A stretch of 49,310 nt of DNA from Planctomycetota bacterium. GTDB lineage: Bacteria; Planctomycetota; UBA1135; GCA-002686595. Within the stretch, counting starts at the first letter, position 1. Each line of letters starts with the position of its first letter. Of the stretch, positions 2,015-32,560 are shown in pieces. The stretch lies in the NCBI GenBank assembly GCA_028823395.1, contig JAPKBO010000005.1, positions 1 to 49,310 on the forward strand, in the 5' to 3' direction. The position numbers and the translations under genes are program-made. Under the pieces are notes generated by a model, which was given only the letters and a program-made list of their open reading frames with translations, was not told the origin of the DNA and did not search any database.

Positions 2015-4024
2015 TCAGACGCTCGTCGGAGTACGGAACATACCTGGAGTGTAGGCCACGATGCGGCCCTCGACCGCACTGGCGGCCACGCTGAGTGGAG
2101 AGCCTAGGTACAGACGCCCTGGCCCACTGCGTCCATTGAAATTTCGATTGATGGCGCTGATGGTGACCTGCTCTCGGTCATCAGAAACCCCTGGTCCGCA
2201 ACCGATGCACGCACCACAACCGGGATCGATGACCTGGACACCGGCGCGCTCGAACACATCTAGGTATCCCATGCGCTTGGCGTAGCCGGCCACAGCCTCT
2301 GAACCGAATTGTATCAGCATTTGAGTTCCCGCAGCGACCTGGCGGCCCGCATCGAGAGCCTCTGCCAAGACGAGAGCGTAGAAGTCCATGTCGTGCTCTT
2401 TACCCGCAGTGCACGAACCGCCGTAGGCAATATCGATGGACACCTCTTCCAATTCCTCGATGGCCCGGCCGTAGGTGGGGTCACCAGGCTCGGCCACCAT
2501 AGGCACCAGAGAGGACATGTCGATCTGGTAGACGCCGCCGGAGTACTCCGCTCCCTCATCCGGGGCCACAAAGCGGGCACGGAACATATCCGGGGTGGTA
2601 CCTTCGCGCCGCTCGGCCATCCACTCAGCAGTAAGGTCGTCGCCTTCGCAGATACCCGAACGTGCAGAACACTCGGTGGCCATGTTGCACAGAGTCGCTC
2701 GCTCATCCATCGAAATGGACGCGAGCCCTGGCCCACCAAACTCCATGACGCGATCAAGAGTCTCTTCGCGTTTCGCGTAGGTGTCCAGGATGTGAAGCAT
2801 CAGGTCCTTGGCCGTCATGCCAGGATTCAACTCGCCCACAAGCTCAAACCGAATGGATTCCGGCACACGCACAATGGTGAAGCCCGACGAAATCAGGCCG
2901 GCGTACTCCGTGGAGCCCACGCCGTAGGCCAGGGCATTGCTACCCCCACCCATGCAGGTGTGCGAGTCCGTCGCCTGAATGAAGTCTCCCGGATCCACGA
3001 ACATCTCGCGGGCCACCTGATGGCAGATCCCTGGCGAGACGCCGTCTTGGGCGGAGTAATCCCGAACACCCGTATGGAGTTGAAACTCTTTTTGTAGATC
3101 ACGGAGCGTCTGGATCTTGTCGCTGAACGGCGCCATGCGCTCAACACCATCGGCATACAGGAGGTGATCCTCGAAGACGGCGAACTTTGCCGGATTCTGG
3201 ACCACGTAGTCCTCGCCGTATTCCTGGCTAAGGAAGTGGTGTACCTGGGCGGTGGTAAACTCGTGACTGTAGCCACCATCCACCTTGACTAAGCAGACAT
3301 CGCCCGGCTGAACGCAAGTCACTCCCCCGTCCTCCGCAGAGTCAGAGACGAGCTTGGCCGCGATGATCTTCTCGGACATGTTCATGGGCCTGGGAGCCGT
3401 CGTCAGCTCCGGAACCGAAGCAGCACCACTGGCGTACAAAGCGGCGAACTGAAAGAGTCCGCCGGCCTCAACGATGGCCCCGCTGATTGCATCGAGCCGC
3501 GAAGTGAACTCCTCCAGCGCGATTTCCTCTCCAGCCTGGAGACGTTGCAACTGGTCATGATCCCCCATCAACTGGCCGAGGTTGACGTTGTTACGCCCGT
3601 GGATGGGTGCAAAGGAGGAAGCGATAACTAGGTGTACGCCACACCAGCGCTCGGCCTGGGGCGCCGTCTCCCGGCTCGAGCCCGTGCCCTTGCGTTGGCC
3701 AGAGACGATCACCTCAAAGCCACCGTCCAAAAGCGCGCGTGATTCGAATACCCGCTGTCCTTGTTCATCGAGCAGGCCCGCATAGGCATCGAGAGCGATG
3801 TCCTCAGGCCGATGCCTGAAGCAAACCCAAGCCGGGGTCATGGTGTCCGTGTTGATGTCGTCGAGCAGCTCGGCCGGATCCACATCCTGCATGCGCAACT
3901 CGGCCTCGCCCCGCAATTGTGCGCCGATGCGAGCTAGGTCCTTGGTCAGGAATAACGCGCGCTTTCCAGGAGTCAAACGCACGACCCTGCGGCCGTCGGC
4001 CGCTATGTGAATCAATGGGTTCAT
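2015..4024 (-). CDS. Aconitase-superfamily protein; fused isopropylmalate isomerase-like with swivel (LeuD-like) domain N-terminal to catalytic (LeuC-like) domain
   Basis: LeuD-like GTGSSRETAPQAERW..VIASSFAPIHGRNNVNLGQL near the N-terminus; LeuC-like DSHTCMGGGSNALAYGVGSTEYA; putative 4Fe-4S cysteines in GGSCTAGKEHD and DPGCGACIGCGPG. Confidence 0.88.
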   Translation of the reverse strand: MNPLIHIAADGRRVVRLTPGKRALFLTKDLARIGAQLRGEAELRMQDVDPAELLDDINTDTMTPAWVCFRHRPEDIALDAYAGLLDEQGQRVFESRALLDGGFEVIVSGQRKGTGSSRETAPQAERWCGVHLVIASSFAPIHGRNNVNLGQLMGDHDQLQRLQAGEEIALEEFTSRLDAISGAIVEAGGLFQFAALYASGAASVPELTTAPRPMNMSEKIIAAKLVSDSAEDGGVTCVQPGDVCLVKVDGGYSHEFTTAQVHHFLSQEYGEDYVVQNPAKFAVFEDHLLYADGVERMAPFSDKIQTLRDLQKEFQLHTGVRDYSAQDGVSPGICHQVAREMFVDPGDFIQATDSHTCMGGGSNALAYGVGSTEYAGLISSGFTIVRVPESIRFELVGELNPGMTAKDLMLHILDTYAKREETLDRVMEFGGPGLASISMDERATLCNMATECSARSGICEGDDLTAEWMAERREGTTPDMFRARFVAPDEGAEYSGGVYQIDMSSLVPMVAEPGDPTYGRAIEELEEVSIDIAYGGSCTAGKEHDMDFYALVLAEALDAGRQVAAGTQMLIQFGSEAVAGYAKRMGYLDVFERAGVQVIDPGCGACIGCGPGVSDDREQVTISAINRNFNGRSGPGRLYLGSPLSVAASAVEGRIVAYTPGMFRTPTSV

Positions 4025-4031
4025 GATTGCT

Positions 4032-5237
4032 CTAGCCCGCCGTATTCTCGATCAACATGGCGATGCCCTGTCCGCCACCGATACAGGCCGAACCCACGCC
4101 GTAGCGCTTGCCGCTGCGACGTAATTGATAGCAAAGGGTCAAGATCAAGCGCGTACCCGTGGCACCGAGTGGATGTCCAAGGCTGATCGCGCCGCCGTTC
4201 ACGTTGCACCGATCGCGATTGAGGCCCAACTCCTTCTCGCAGCCCAGATACTGAGCACTGAAGGCCTCGTTGATTTCGAAGTAGTCCACATCGTCGGTGC
4301 TCAAGGAGGCTTTCTCCAAGAGTGACCGGATGGCGGGCACGGGGCCAATGCCCATCTCCTTGGGATCCACACCCACGTAGCTCCAGCCGCGGATGGTTGC
4401 CATCACATCCAGACCATCGGCCCTGGCGCGCTCAGCGGTGGTCACCACGACAGACGCCGCACCGTCGACGATCCCGCTGGCGTTGCCCGCGGTCACAGTG
4501 CCTTCCTTTCCGAAGGCGGCGCGCAGTCCGCTAAGGACTTCGATGGTGGTCTCGGGCTTGATGTGATCATCGGTATCGATCAAGCGCTCGCCCTTACGGG
4601 TCTTGAGAGTCACCGGCGCGATCTCCTCGGCGAAGAGTCCCTCACTGACAGCCTTGGCCCCCAGTTGGTGGCTGCGCAGGGCGTACTCGTCCTGGGCTTC
4701 ACGGCCGATATCGAGGCGCTTGGCCAAACGCTCTGCGGTCTGCGCCATGTAAGTGTCGGCGTAGGGGTCGTAGAGGCTGGCGAACAAGAGGTCCTGCATC
4801 TCGGGCGCCTTGCCAAATGGAAAGCCACGCCGCGCGCCGTACAGCACAAAGGGCGCCTGGCTCATATTCTCCATCCCGCCAGCGAGCACGGTCGTCGCTT
4901 CACCCAGTTGGATCAGCTGAGCTGCGCTGACGATGGACTGGATGCCGGAACCACATAGTCGGTTAACGGTCAGCGCCGGAGCGTGCTCAGGAACTCCCGA
5001 CCGCAAGGCCACGTGACGGGCACCGTAGATCGCATCCGTGGAGGTCTGAAGCGCATTGCCCATGACCACGTGATCGACGCTGGCCGGGTCCACCTTCGAT
5101 CGCTCGAGGGCTGCCGTGGATGCGTGCACGCCAAGATCGATGGCGGACAGATCCTTGAACGCTCCGTAGCCGGGTGTGCCCACGTATTCGGCCATGGGAG
5201 TGCGTGCTCCACCGACGATGACGACTTCTTGACTCAT
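4032..5237 (-). CDS. Thiolase (acetyl-CoA C-acetyltransferase family)
   Basis: VNRLCGSGIQSIV active Cys; NEAFSAQ; GGAISLGHPLGATGTR; SACIGGGQG. Confidence 0.95.
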   Translation of the reverse strand: MSQEVVIVGGARTPMAEYVGTPGYGAFKDLSAIDLGVHASTAALERSKVDPASVDHVVMGNALQTSTDAIYGARHVALRSGVPEHAPALTVNRLCGSGIQSIVSAAQLIQLGEATTVLAGGMENMSQAPFVLYGARRGFPFGKAPEMQDLLFASLYDPYADTYMAQTAERLAKRLDIGREAQDEYALRSHQLGAKAVSEGLFAEEIAPVTLKTRKGERLIDTDDHIKPETTIEVLSGLRAAFGKEGTVTAGNASGIVDGAASVVVTTAERARADGLDVMATIRGWSYVGVDPKEMGIGPVPAIRSLLEKASLSTDDVDYFEINEAFSAQYLGCEKELGLNRDRCNVNGGAISLGHPLGATGTRLILTLCYQLRRSGKRYGVGSACIGGGQGIAMLIENTAG

Positions 5238-27155: not shown

Positions 27156-27605
27156 GGGTTTCGGGGGTGGGGTTGGGCGCCGGGAAGCGGAGAGGGTTAG
27201 GCCTCTGCAGCCTGACCTCCTGGCCTCTCTTTGGGCCTGTCTTTGAGCCTGTTTCCAAAGCTGCTCTCGGCACCGAATTCGGGGCAACACACTACCGCGC
27301 AACGGGACGCGAAGACAGATCGCCAGGGTGTAAATTTGGTCTAAGTTCGTCCCTATTGGGGGTCAGATTCGGGCTCATCGAAATACACCGCGAGAATGCA
27401 CCCGTGCCGTATTTCATGCCCTCTAAGCCCCTTAGACAAGGACATTGAGAGGCTTTGCAAGGTAATACAGCCCGAGGGCCATACCCTCCACCCTTTCCCC
27501 ACCCCGTATGGGGAATGCGATGCACAAAACGCCGAGTTGCATCCCCACCCTTAAATCCCTATCCCAGTCTCATGGATTCGGTGTCTCAGCCGGTCCAAGG
27601 GGGAA

Positions 27606-28190
27606 TTGACGGTGGAAGAGCATCTAATCGTACAAGGACTGCGTGACCGCGAAGAGGAAGCCGTAAAGGTCTTTCTCGAGCGGTACCGTTCACTGTTCTA
27701 CCACTGCATAGGCCACTTCGAGTCGGATCCCGGCGCAAGGGAAGATCTCTACCAGGACCTGGTGGTCTACGCCCTTGAAAGGCTGGACCGTGGCACCTTC
27801 GATCCCGAGAAGGGCTCTTTCGGGACTTGGCTGTACCGCGTGGCTTGGTGCCGCTCTGTCGACCTCAAGCGCCGCCAAAGTGCGCGCAATCGGCCGGGCC
27901 CTGCCAGCGGGGGAGACGAGGTTCCCGATAGAGCAGATGAAACTCCTGGCCCGGATGAGCGCGCAGGGACCGGTGAAATCGGGGACATGGTGCGCTCCGC
28001 CATGGGCCAGCTCGCCCCAGAGGAACAAGACCTCTTGAATCTGAGGTTCGTGGATGCCCAGACCATGGGCTCCATTTCCCGCAGCCTTGGAATCTCACTG
28101 GAGCAGACCAAGTACCGGCTGCGAAAGGCCGTCGTAAGCATGCGCAAGGTGCTCTTGAACCAATACGCATATGAGGAGGTCACGGAGTGA
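27606..28190 (+). CDS. ECF-type RNA polymerase sigma factor
   Basis: Region 2-like EDLYQDLVVYALERLDRGTFDPEKGSFGTWLYRVAWCRSVDLKRRQ; region 4-like LAPEEQDLLNLRFVDAQTMGSISRSLGISLEQTKYRLRKA; TTG start in track, GTG at 27612 is an alternative. Confidence 0.9.
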   Translation: MTVEEHLIVQGLRDREEEAVKVFLERYRSLFYHCIGHFESDPGAREDLYQDLVVYALERLDRGTFDPEKGSFGTWLYRVAWCRSVDLKRRQSARNRPGPASGGDEVPDRADETPGPDERAGTGEIGDMVRSAMGQLAPEEQDLLNLRFVDAQTMGSISRSLGISLEQTKYRLRKAVVSMRKVLLNQYAYEEVTE

Positions 28191-29323
28191 AGGCCTCAGA
28201 TCACCTGCCCAACAGCCCATTTCCCAAGATTGGGAAGAAATCTGCCCCCCAGGACGGCTGGGCTGCGGAAACGAGGTCAGCTATGGACTCTCTAAACCAA
28301 GGAAGAGGACCCCTGCCTGACGGGCGGGATGATCCCAACGTCACCGAATTGCTTGCCCATTGGGATGAACTCCCCGAAGAGGGCCTCGCCAACATCACGG
28401 CACATCCGGTACACGGAGCGCGGCTGGAGTTGCTCCGTGCGGTAGACGATTGGCTTGATGGCCGGACCGCCAGCTCCGGCAGTTGTCCCTCAGCAGAGAC
28501 TCTCTACGACTTCTCCAAAGGCCCCGGCTATGCGCTGCTCGACCGCGAGCACCAGGGTGCGGTACTCGACCATCTGACCGAGTGCGCCGAGTGCGCAGAC
28601 CTCGTGGGTTCATTGGAGTCTTCCCCACCGGTCCCCTTGGACTGGTCCCCGCCGGGGCATTCAGATGCGAGCGACACCGATCCGAGTCTCTTCTCTCGGC
28701 CAAAGCCTTGGGGGATGCCGCAGCGTCCGCACCGGCCGGTCCCCATCCAGCTCCTGCGCCGCCTGACCCCCATCGCCGCCGCCATGGCAGCCCTCGTCGG
28801 TGGCTTGATGCTCTTCCAGGGAGGAGAGGGCCAATCAAATCTGCCGGCCTACCCGCTTCTGCGCGGCAGCGCCCAGGGCAGCCTCCTCTTCCCGCGCGGA
28901 CCCGTACTGCTCGCATCGGAGGATCAGGGTCTCCTCTTCGAAGTGAATCCAGTTGCCGAAGCACAGGGCTATACGATCATCTTGCGCGCCCATGCGGGTG
29001 GCGCCTTTGCCGAGGGCAGCCGCGTAACGCAGCTCAGCGGCGACACACCTGATTTGGCGCTCGGCCAGGTACTGCCCGTAGGTCACTACACCTGGGAAGC
29101 CCACGCCACGGTGAACGGCCTGGAACAGCCCCTAGGCGAGCGAGATTTCGAAGTACTTCATAACGACTCCTACCTGCAAGCTCTCAATGAGGAGCAGGAC
29201 GTGCTTGAGCGCGTCAGGTCTCTGCACGAGGCCGGTTATTGGACCGATGCCCGTGCGGCAGCTCGCCGCTTGCCTCCCAGTAGCGAACGTGATTCGTACC
29301 TGGGTTCCAACCCGGGGCGCTAG
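28187..29323 (+). CDS. Putative membrane-anchored zinc-finger anti-sigma factor
   Basis: GTG start overlaps the sigma stop by 4 nt; C100..H129xxxC133xxC136 (VLDHLTECAECADLV); single TM segment about residues 193-211 (TPIAAAMAALVGGLMLF); about 165-residue C-terminal domain. Confidence 0.75.
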   Translation: MKASDHLPNSPFPKIGKKSAPQDGWAAETRSAMDSLNQGRGPLPDGRDDPNVTELLAHWDELPEEGLANITAHPVHGARLELLRAVDDWLDGRTASSGSCPSAETLYDFSKGPGYALLDREHQGAVLDHLTECAECADLVGSLESSPPVPLDWSPPGHSDASDTDPSLFSRPKPWGMPQRPHRPVPIQLLRRLTPIAAAMAALVGGLMLFQGGEGQSNLPAYPLLRGSAQGSLLFPRGPVLLASEDQGLLFEVNPVAEAQGYTIILRAHAGGAFAEGSRVTQLSGDTPDLALGQVLPVGHYTWEAHATVNGLEQPLGERDFEVLHNDSYLQALNEEQDVLERVRSLHEAGYWTDARAAARRLPPSSERDSYLGSNPGR

Positions 29324-29328
29324 CTCAC

Positions 29329-31860
29329 GTGTCCACTCAGCAGTTGTCCACCCGGCTCCACCAGGGAGCACCCGGTAGGCCGCTGCGAGCCAGGCTCAGT
29401 CGCGGAACGGGCTTGGGTGTTTTGCCGCTGCTGACGGCCCTCGGCCTATTTGCGTGGGCACCCTTTGGTTTCGCCCAGCAAGCGAACCCGGCACAAGCGG
29501 AATTGACCGCGTTCGTCCGTACACTTTCGGCATTACGCGCCGGGGAAGGGGTTGAAGACGATCACGCCGGTCGACTGCTCCAGCAGGCGGAGAGCCTGTG
29601 TGTGGACTTCGCGCGCTGCGATACGTTGGCTGTAGCCCGGTACTACTTGCGCCTCACTCCGGGCCAGCGAGCTCAAGGGTTGGAAGCCGAACAGACCTTC
29701 TTGACGCTCCGTAAGACCTTCCAGACCCTACGCACCCGGTACGAGCAGTCGAATCAAGAGCTCCCGGGAACGAACCCCGACTGGCAAGAGGAGGTCCGCA
29801 CCCTGTGTGCCGGATTGGAACACCTGGCCGCCCAAGTCGAGAACCGTCAGGACGTAGTTCCAGCTGCCCAGAGCTACGCTCTTCTAGCACGCGTAGAACT
29901 CCACGAATTAGAACAGGCGCTCGATCTATCTGACGCCCGGCGACAGGCACTGCCCGGCCTTATCTCAGACCACATCGAACGCAGTCTGCTGCTCTTCGAA
30001 CGCGCCGGGCAGGTCACCCCGCGACTCGAACCTCTTTGGCTCCGCGGCCGTCTGGCCCGAGCTCGCGCAGAGCACGAACGGGCGCGCGAGGTCTTCGAAG
30101 ATTGCCTGCGCCTCGCGCGAGACGTCGGCCGCTTCGAGTACCAGGAACGCGCGCTCTCCGGCCTGGTGGATCTGGCCAAGGATGCGGGCAACCTGAGGGA
30201 TGTTGACGAGCATCTGGCCACCTGGGCCAGCCTGACCTCTCCTAGTGAGAGCTGGCCCCTGGCACGAGAGCACGCCGCGCGCCTCCTGGCCGATGACCGC
30301 GCAGAGTCGGCCCTGGCATTTCTCGCAGGCCATAAGCCCAAGCACGCCGGCGATCAACCTCAGTGGCATGGCATGCTGGCAGTGACCTACCTGCGCACCG
30401 GCGACCTGACCTCCGCACGCCGCGAGGTTCAGGCCCTTGGTAGCGAAGCAAGCGAATTCAATGCTCTGGCCAGAGCGGCCCTGGCCATGGCCGAGGGCAC
30501 ACCCGACCAGGTGCGCACCCTGCTTGCCGATTCTGACCAGCGGGCGAAGTGGTCCCCCCAAGGCCAAGTAGAAGCAGCCTCCCTCATGGGCGAGAGTTGG
30601 CTCGCTTCTGGGCAGCCCGCCCTGGCGCTGCCCTACCTGGAGAGCGCCTTAGACGCGGCTCGTCGAAAGGCGAGCCAGGTGCAGGATCAAGCGGGCAGCA
30701 TTGTCGGCGAGTGGGTTGGCATTCACACCCTGACCCTTTTGGCCCGGGCACACGCCGAACTGGGAGACCCGCTCAACGCAGCACGGGTCATCGAGGACAA
30801 TCAATCCCGTCGGCTGCGGCCCACCGGCGCGCGGATCACGATCGAAGAGTTGCGCGCCTGGGCTGCCCGCTTCGATCTGGGCCTTGTGACGTTTGCCGTG
30901 GGAGCTGACTCCACGGTGGTGGTCTGGGTTGATGCCAACGGAAGAGCTGGGGCCAGCTCGCAGCCACTTGGCCGACGCAGCCTAGAAGGAGCCGTGCGCA
31001 GGTTGCGCGAGGCCGTTGTCGCTGGTGACCTGCCGCGGGCAGAGGTTCTGGGACAGGAGATAGGCGCGGCCTTGTTGCCTGTGGAGCTACGCGACCACCT
31101 CAGATCTGCGGGCGTGGGTGCTCGCGCTCTCTTCCTCTTGCACGGCCCCCTTGAGGCTCTACCCCTCAGCCTGCTCGGAGTGGATGGATCCTGGCTCGAC
31201 GATCTGCTGACCCCTCTGGTTCTCCCTGGCCTGCCCCTGGGGGAGGCGGCGGAACCGCTCGCGGTGGATACTCCCTGGACCTTGATGGGCAGCCCCCTCG
31301 GGAGTGAAGAGCGTGTTCCTCTCCTGCCCGGTGCAGCGCTTGAGCTTGCTCATCTTGGGCGCATGCACCCGACCGCCAACCTGCTAACCGGCACCGCATT
31401 TGTGCGCCCCGCCCTTGAGGCCGCCATGGCGAGCGGCCGGCCCCTTCACCTGGCAACGCACCTGGTACCGGCACCTGGCTGCTCGGAGGGTCGCCTGGCA
31501 CCTGTGGGACTGTTGCTCTCCGGGGGCGACGTGCTTTGCCCCGAACAGATCTTGAGCAGGGCCCCACGTCTGCCGCTTGTGGTCCTGGCTGCATGCGAAA
31601 CTGCTGGCGGCCGAACGATCGACGCTGAAGGGTCCCACGGTGTGGCGCGAGCATTCCTGGAAGCTGGCACTCGCAACCTCCTCGTGACGCTCTGGCCCAT
31701 TTCGGACTCCGCAGCCCAGACGTTTGCTCTGGCCTACCACGAGAGCCTAAGGGCAGGTGTCCCCCCGGCAGGAGCCGCTCAGGAAGCGCGCAAACATCTG
31801 CGCTCCTTGGGTCACGGCCCCCAGGACTGGGCTGCATTCCGCGCAATGGGCCGCGAATAG
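29329..31860 (+). CDS. Exported TPR-CHAT domain protein (putative caspase-like cysteine protease)
   Basis: CHAT motifs LHLATHLVP (His711), LVVLAACETAGG (Cys756), GVARAFLEAGTRNLLVTLWPISD; helical TPR-like middle; N-terminal hydrophobic segment LGVLPLLTALGLFAWAPFGFAQQA. Confidence 0.9.
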   Translation: MSTQQLSTRLHQGAPGRPLRARLSRGTGLGVLPLLTALGLFAWAPFGFAQQANPAQAELTAFVRTLSALRAGEGVEDDHAGRLLQQAESLCVDFARCDTLAVARYYLRLTPGQRAQGLEAEQTFLTLRKTFQTLRTRYEQSNQELPGTNPDWQEEVRTLCAGLEHLAAQVENRQDVVPAAQSYALLARVELHELEQALDLSDARRQALPGLISDHIERSLLLFERAGQVTPRLEPLWLRGRLARARAEHERAREVFEDCLRLARDVGRFEYQERALSGLVDLAKDAGNLRDVDEHLATWASLTSPSESWPLAREHAARLLADDRAESALAFLAGHKPKHAGDQPQWHGMLAVTYLRTGDLTSARREVQALGSEASEFNALARAALAMAEGTPDQVRTLLADSDQRAKWSPQGQVEAASLMGESWLASGQPALALPYLESALDAARRKASQVQDQAGSIVGEWVGIHTLTLLARAHAELGDPLNAARVIEDNQSRRLRPTGARITIEELRAWAARFDLGLVTFAVGADSTVVVWVDANGRAGASSQPLGRRSLEGAVRRLREAVVAGDLPRAEVLGQEIGAALLPVELRDHLRSAGVGARALFLLHGPLEALPLSLLGVDGSWLDDLLTPLVLPGLPLGEAAEPLAVDTPWTLMGSPLGSEERVPLLPGAALELAHLGRMHPTANLLTGTAFVRPALEAAMASGRPLHLATHLVPAPGCSEGRLAPVGLLLSGGDVLCPEQILSRAPRLPLVVLAACETAGGRTIDAEGSHGVARAFLEAGTRNLLVTLWPISDSAAQTFALAYHESLRAGVPPAGAAQEARKHLRSLGHGPQDWAAFRAMGRE

Positions 31861-31981
31861 TCCCTCTGGGGGGCAGTGTGGAATGATTTTCCGTTTCTAG
31901 GCCCTGGGGACTAAAGCTAGCCCCACGCCGGATCCGATAGAGGGGGGGTCAACGGACAACAACCGCTGACAGGAGTGAGAC

Positions 31982-32560
31982 ATGTTCACAACCGCCCTCT
32001 GCGCCGCCCTCTTCATCCAAATCCCCACCCCCTGCGACTTGCCCGAAGGTCTCGAGCAGGCCCAAGTGGAGATGCTGATCCAGGTAAACGAGAACCACTT
32101 CGCCATTCACAACCTCTCCTCCCTACCCCAGGTCCTGGTGGTTGGAGAAGAGGAGCTAGGTGCCACGGGCGCTGCACGGGTCGAGCCCGGCGAGTCCTTG
32201 ATCTACCCCTTCCCGCGCGGCGCTGCCGATGCCCTTTTGTTCGACGTCATCGCCTTGGCATCGGACACCTGGCGCAACACCGGCGCCCTGGAAGTCGCTC
32301 GTGTCCGCCAAGCCGATGGAGGATCCCTTTGGATCCAAAACGCCCAGAGCTTCTCCCTGGGTTGGACGAGTGAACGAGGAGAACTGAAACACGAGCGGCC
32401 CGTAACGGGCCTCTTGCCAGCGGCCTTGATTGCCGCCCATTCCGGACTGCAGGACTATGAGGCATTGGCCAGCGCGCACGTGCCTGTCCCTATCCCGGTG
32501 GACGACAAGAAAGGTGGCGGACCTCCCGTTGTGGAGGACGAAGTGTTGCCTCCGGTGTGA
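31982..32560 (+). CDS. Hypothetical protein downstream of the CHAT gene
   Basis: 192-aa ORF, ATG 31982, co-directional with 27606-31860; short hydrophobic N-terminus (TTALCAALFIQI). Confidence 0.65.
   Translation: MFTTALCAALFIQIPTPCDLPEGLEQAQVEMLIQVNENHFAIHNLSSLPQVLVVGEEELGATGAARVEPGESLIYPFPRGAADALLFDVIALASDTWRNTGALEVARVRQADGGSLWIQNAQSFSLGWTSERGELKHERPVTGLLPAALIAAHSGLQDYEALASAHVPVPIPVDDKKGGGPPVVEDEVLPPV

Follow-up and report, generated by a model that had tools for sequence, protein, structure and literature searches.

The window analysed here is the whole stretch of 49,310 nucleotides at positions 1 to 49,310 of contig JAPKBO010000005.1 (assembly GCA_028823395.1) from a Planctomycetota bacterium, and it carries an operon in which an extracytoplasmic function (ECF) sigma factor gene is followed by an anti-sigma gene and a TPR-CHAT gene, all on the forward strand (Table 1). 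A sequence-only reading of the window had described three co-directional, nearly contiguous genes, and their coordinates, their frames, the 4-nt overlap between the sigma and anti-sigma genes and the 5-nt gap between the anti-sigma and CHAT genes were all reproduced. It had further proposed that the CHAT protein acts outside the cytoplasm on the C-terminal domain of the anti-sigma or on a partner, giving a pathway from protease to sigma factor that needs no CRISPR system. This interpretation is partly supported. The conserved neighbourhood, the export segment of the CHAT protein, the transmembrane (TM) helix of the anti-sigma and a match in topology between the two proteins speak for it; the pathway itself is inferred. 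Three findings that would have told against the proposal, namely a triad not kept as a neighbourhood, a CHAT protein predicted to be cytoplasmic and an anti-sigma lacking a TM helix, were looked for and did not arise.

The relatives screened comprised 61 genomes, the close ones being Planctomycetota metagenome-assembled genomes, and 23 ortholog loci plus 38 further ones were examined. Strong orthologs of the sigma, the anti-sigma and the CHAT protein shared the genomes of one family; an order-wide search found anti-sigma orthologs in nearly 60 genomes of that family. The presence mismatches that were checked (G019, G024 and G030) lay at contig ends. In every locus with a long enough contig, the three genes were adjacent and co-directional, in line with the neighbourhood that the earlier proposal presupposed. 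The contiguity persisted where the flanking thiolase and 3-hydroxyacyl-CoA dehydrogenase (HCDH) genes were gone, as in L044, L046 and L050, and the identity of the triad proteins dropped to about 35-40% across the family. Moreover, the three genes and a fourth one downstream were all under purifying selection, with dN/dS of 0.07-0.24 against congeners (CHAT, 0.11). Since the sigma, the membrane anti-sigma and the exported CHAT protein are always encoded together, cleavage of the anti-sigma by CHAT outside the cytoplasm is suggested, a counterpart to the action of CRISPR-linked proteases inside cells.

The first protein contains sigma2 and sigma4 regions and no sigma3 region, as ECF sigma factors do. 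Sigma70_r2 and Sigma70_r4 both scored over the cut-off and TIGR02937 matched with E=1e-20, bearing out the initial call; the orthologs showed identities of 46-93%. Of the 51 regions upstream of sigma orthologs, 27 contained the pattern TTG[CA]A-N16/17-[CGT]TA[TC], in most cases 45-85 nt ahead of the start, compared with a mean of 0.15 and a maximum of 3 in shuffled upstream regions. Some of these elements resemble ECF promoters of the TGAAAC-N16-CGTA type. That the sigma factor regulates its own gene is predicted from the conserved ECF-type promoter ahead of it. The strict form of the pattern occurred once in the organism's own genome, at the operon, and a search for a sigma regulon in that genome with this strict pattern gave no further site.

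As a single sequence, the anti-sigma had no Pfam or PADLOC match. When a 21-sequence profile was compared with the whole PDB, the matches at E<1 were solely the zinc anti-sigmas RslA, RsiW and ChrR (E=0.002-0.17), individually weak and jointly uniform. The zinc motif, the single TM helix and an outer part (167 aa) that the sequence-only reading had described were all present. The Hx3Cx2C motif lies across helices 2-3 and the gene lies beside an ECF gene, as in class I zinc anti-sigmas (ASDI/ZAS; PMC7406223). Judging from its family, the protein would bind and inhibit its ECF sigma. In a wider set of 61 anti-sigma orthologs, the ligands were retained at C133 in 48 and at H129 in 51 of the 57 readable sequences. 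At C136, 9 of 57 readable orthologs carried Glu, and several orthologs had lost zinc ligands yet retained the outer domain and the adjoining CHAT gene. A second HxxxCxxC finger, N-terminal to the main one, was seen in L040, L045, L046, L049, L052 and L054, and is degenerate in the genus of the window.

The AlphaFold2 model of the anti-sigma consisted of cytoplasmic helices that include the zinc domain, the TM helix, an Fn3/Ig sandwich and C-terminal helices (residues 327-373). The positive-inside rule, which predicts an inside N-terminus, was obeyed by 53 of the 58 orthologs. The predicted topology, with a single TM helix, the N-terminus inside, the C-terminus outside and an outer domain, is RseA-like. 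Furthermore, the outer parts were better conserved among the orthologs than the zinc domain. In the linker just outside the membrane, R226 was present in 59/59 and P220 in 58/59 readable orthologs; this linker was modelled with low confidence and varies in length. R226 is therefore put forward, from its sequence context, as a candidate cleavage site for a clan CD protease.

For the third protein, PF12770 matched with E=5e-31 together with TPRs, and the His711/Cys756 dyad was in place, as had been read originally. A CHAT fold with such a dyad is typical of clan CD (PF12770), and proteolytic activity can be predicted. A hydrophobic N-terminal segment was seen in 18 of the 20 full-length CHAT orthologs, the remaining 2 lying just below the threshold, which points to export rather than to a cytoplasmic location. 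In L159, the sole exception at Cys756, two CHAT matches overlapped but lay in different reading frames, consistent with a frameshift. At that place (L159:9174-11621, the same as L075), the CHAT ortholog, which seems to have shifted frame close to the catalytic Cys, is flanked by two more CHAT genes. In the organism's own assembly, which is 85% complete, there was only one CHAT match. The protease of the operon is a CHAT protein with TPRs, not an HtrA/PDZ serine protease of the DegS type. A fusion of anti-sigma and CHAT was considered and rejected, the extra N-terminal length of the long CHAT frames being an upstream non-coding frame. The link to Csx29 that had been drawn from the letters holds as an analogy only, and Csx29 orthology is unsupported: the CHAT profile did not single out Csx29 among solved structures, and PADLOC gave a marginal BovA match only. 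No CRISPR effector was seen at the locus, where no search aimed at gRAMP was made.

Table 1. Features of the sigma/anti-sigma/CHAT operon and of the fourth gene (positions in the window)
Feature	Position	Strand	Basis
ECF-type promoter element TTGCAT-N16-CTATCC, upstream of sigma gene	27537..27564	+	Ortholog pattern search
ECF sigma factor (sigma2 + sigma4), 194 aa, TTG start	27606..28190	+	Pfam, TIGR02937
Membrane anti-sigma: zinc anti-sigma domain, TM, Fn3/Ig-like outer domain, helical C-terminal tail	28187..29323	+	
Zinc anti-sigma motif C100...H129xxxC133xxC136	28484..28594	+	Invariant or nearly so in an ortholog alignment
Single TM helix, residues 194-211, N-terminus predicted inside	28766..28819	+	AlphaFold2 helix; positive-inside rule
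Outer juxtamembrane linker P220...LR226-G227, candidate cleavage site	28844..28867	+	
Fn3/Ig-like outer domain, residues 233-324	28883..29158	+	pLDDT mostly >90; Foldseek Fn3/Ig matches
Helical C-terminal tail LHEAGYxxDARxxARxLPPSxERDxYL...PGR, most conserved part of the protein	29165..29320	+	
TPR-CHAT protein, predicted exported, 843 aa, GTG start	29329..31860	+	
N-terminal export segment, signal-peptide-like, ...FGFA/QQ (slash, predicted cut)	29404..29475	+	
CHAT peptidase domain, PF12770, residues 575-841	31051..31851	+	Matched by profile to 8rot, a solved CHAT protein
Catalytic His711 (predicted)	31459..31461	+	53/53 readable orthologs; aligned with His of 8rot
Catalytic Cys756 (predicted)	31594..31596	+	50/51 readable orthologs; aligned with Cys of 8rot
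Promoter-like element of fourth gene, CT[CA]AAG-N16/17-CCGATA	31911..31939	+	By eye, most of 16 aligned upstream regions
Fourth gene: Ig-like protein, predicted exported, 192 aa, disordered conserved C-terminal tail	31982..32560	+	
Fourth-protein tail HVPVxxP...PPxIxxxxLPPV-COOH	32477-32557	+	HVP/HIP tail in 39/39

The sequence-only reading overlooked the fourth gene and both conserved promoters. In most loci the fourth gene follows the triad, at a distance that sometimes reaches several kb, and in the screen of 61 genomes its matches at E<=1e-3 were almost confined to triad genomes. The model of its product (pLDDT 83) is an Ig-like sandwich with a tail at about 50-60, and the fold had no match among solved structures at E<=0.001. 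Its promoter-like element differs from that of the sigma gene and resembles promoters of sigma-28, except that the spacer is longer. The pattern occurred at 6 sites in the organism's own genome; taken as a regulon marker, these six sites showed no clear shared theme. The immediate neighbours of the operon, named from their translations, are thiolase, HCDH and M16-like genes.

Non-orthologous CHATs also follow an ECF gene and a gene for a zinc-type or membrane protein. In a phylum-wide sample of 39 CHAT loci, a biased draw of high-scoring CHATs, a sigma-like gene lay at most 3 kb upstream in 6, and an HxxxCxxC protein was encoded between in each. This count is approximate: four of the six sigmas scored over the Pfam cut-off, that of L191 was sub-threshold and that of L193 had no Pfam match. 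Four of the zinc proteins were tested against Pfam, and three of them matched zf-HC2 at E<=3e-4, one of the 3 below its cut-off. Sigma matches numbered 6 in the 107 kb upstream of CHAT genes, compared with 5 in 766 strand-kb elsewhere (P=9e-4). When topology was compared among 15 distinct triads, with the present family counted once and export called by hydropathy and by eye, a TM anti-sigma was paired with an exported CHAT in 12 and a soluble anti-sigma with a non-exported CHAT in 3, with no exceptions (12:0:0:3; Fisher P=0.002, indicative only). Several of the 12 TM proteins had no HxxxCxxC. Since independent triads carry unrelated CHATs and the topologies match throughout, a meeting of anti-sigma and CHAT in one compartment is supported.

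The ECF-like gene of L193 (oriented 3937-4542), beside a zf-HC2 protein and a CHAT, matched a broadened ECF profile only and may be a very divergent sigma. L091, L102 and L205 encode a soluble zinc-type or zinc-like anti-sigma with a CHAT that has no export signal, possibly a cytoplasmic subtype; the anti-sigma of L205 had a sub-cut-off match to a carboxypeptidase-regulatory-like domain.

Localisation and co-conservation make it plausible that CHAT serves as a site-1 protease of the outer part of the anti-sigma. In the mechanism that we propose, the zinc domain would hold the ECF sigma in the cytoplasm, as in its family, and the Fn3-like domain and the C-terminal helices are predicted to lie outside the inner membrane beside the exported TPR-CHAT protein. 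The TPRs may dock on these conserved helices, and a signal, perhaps passed on by the conserved C-terminal tail of the fourth protein, would activate the CHAT dyad. CHAT would then cleave the anti-sigma close to the membrane, possibly behind Arg226, and the sigma would be freed by an M50 (site-2) protease together with proteolysis in the cytoplasm; the freed sigma is predicted to transcribe its own operon from a TTGCA-N17-CTAT/CGTAT promoter. We consider such a membrane-spanning switch, with a dedicated exported CHAT as site-1 protease, to have slightly less than an even chance of being correct. In its favour are the contiguity of the triad despite divergence and flank change, the retention of the dyad, purifying selection and the CHAT export segment. 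The anti-sigma topology, the conservation of its outer parts, Arg226, the topology match, the ECF enrichment, the sigma promoter and the Craspase and Calp precedents add to this support.

Several points weigh against it. Vertical inheritance within one family accounts for part of the co-occurrence, and about 85% of the sampled phylum CHAT loci had no adjacent sigma. The topology comparison is small, and its triads are partly related and not fully independent. The invariant Arg226 could instead be structural, and a protease with a catalytic cysteine has to be kept reduced once outside the cytoplasm. The organism's own genome encodes M50 proteases as site-2 candidates, and such proteases are near-universal, which makes their presence weak, unspecific support.

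Part of this evidence can be read differently. The target of CHAT may be the fourth protein, which is exported, or other proteins of the envelope, and not the anti-sigma. CHAT would then either belong to the output of the sigma regulon or release a fourth-protein fragment that signals to the Fn3 domain. The position of the fourth gene after the triad in most loci, its near-confinement to triad genomes and its conserved disordered tail fit this alternative, as does the place of CHAT as last gene of the sigma operon, which is common for outputs. However, the fourth gene can sit several kb away under a different promoter of its own, the linkage is tighter for the triad without it, and the topology match would be left unexplained; we regard this alternative as unlikely, though one to be taken seriously. 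That CHAT is an unrelated neighbour of an ordinary ECF/anti-sigma pair, held in place by vertical inheritance, would agree with the close orthologs all belonging to one family and often occupying one chromosomal site beside the thiolase gene. It is quite unlikely, since the contiguity outlasts the thiolase flank in the three loci named above and triads with unrelated CHATs, zinc-type proteins between and matching topologies recur in other families.

TPRs are binding modules and the periplasmic RseB controls RseA (PMC8103513), so CHAT might be a non-cleaving sensor scaffold that acts allosterically on the anti-sigma or shields it from another site-1 protease, the dyad mattering little. An invariant dyad over a deeply diverged family and the low CHAT dN/dS are hard to reconcile with dispensable catalysis, and we hold this to be very unlikely. 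Redox sensing is frequent among cytoplasmic zinc anti-sigmas (PMC7406223), and the anti-sigma could respond to redox or metal in the cytoplasm, with the outer domain and CHAT acting on some other process. Since the outer domain and tail are conserved above the zinc domain, and several orthologs that have lost zinc ligands retain the outer part, there is hardly any chance of such purely soluble regulation.

Proteases are tied to sigma factors in known systems. In type III-E CRISPR, Csx29 cleaves Csx30, the inhibitor of CASP-sigma (PMC10028731). This Craspase likewise encodes a TPR-CHAT protease, an ECF sigma and a sigma inhibitor together, with cleavage relieving inhibition, as is proposed here; in contrast, the present inhibitor is a zinc-type membrane protein instead of Csx30 and the protease is predicted to be exported. 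CalpL/CalpT/CalpS is a three-gene protease/anti-sigma/ECF sigma module of type III CRISPR (PMC11417357), but its protease is a Lon protease activated by cA4, cytoplasmic and CRISPR-dependent. With DegS/RseP-RseA-RpoE and RasP/RsiP-SigP (PMC8103513, PMC8844934) the present system would share an ECF sigma restrained by an anti-sigma that has one TM helix and an outer domain, and an outside site-1 cut followed by site-2 cleavage. The proposed site-1 protease here is an operon-encoded clan CD cysteine protease (CHAT) with TPRs, unlike the serine protease or signal peptidase used there. An eLife 2021 article (PMC8195603) describes EACC2-caspase neighbourhoods in which an ECF sigma and a TPR protein also occur, and a caspase-fold protease is likewise predicted to cooperate with the ECF sigma. 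The proteins there are EACC2-caspase fusions, and the passages covered mention no TPR-CHAT that is exported and paired with a membrane-bound zinc anti-sigma. No earlier account of an exported sigma/anti-sigma/CHAT triad was found in the literature searched, which did not extend to subscription journals, and a prior description is possible. New here are the fourth exported protein with its own promoter, the sigma promoter, the phylum-wide triads with unrelated CHATs, the topology match and Arg226.

A broader generalisation is rather doubtful. Sigma-linked TPR-CHATs may form a widespread CRISPR-independent signalling class of Planctomycetota, at the envelope or, in the soluble subtype, in the cytoplasm, each serving a zinc anti-sigma as its dedicated site-1 protease, which would cut it at the invariant juxtamembrane Arg when switched by a partner tail; this class could be the stock from which the CRISPR Craspase came. 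If the proposed switch is true, it would add a caspase-like class to the proteases that perform the site-1 step in anti-sigma proteolysis, and would give an exported CHAT protease a substrate and a candidate site, R226 of the anti-sigma. It would also be a stand-alone relative of the type III-E CRISPR logic, and would account for some of the still unassigned Planctomycetota CHAT proteins.

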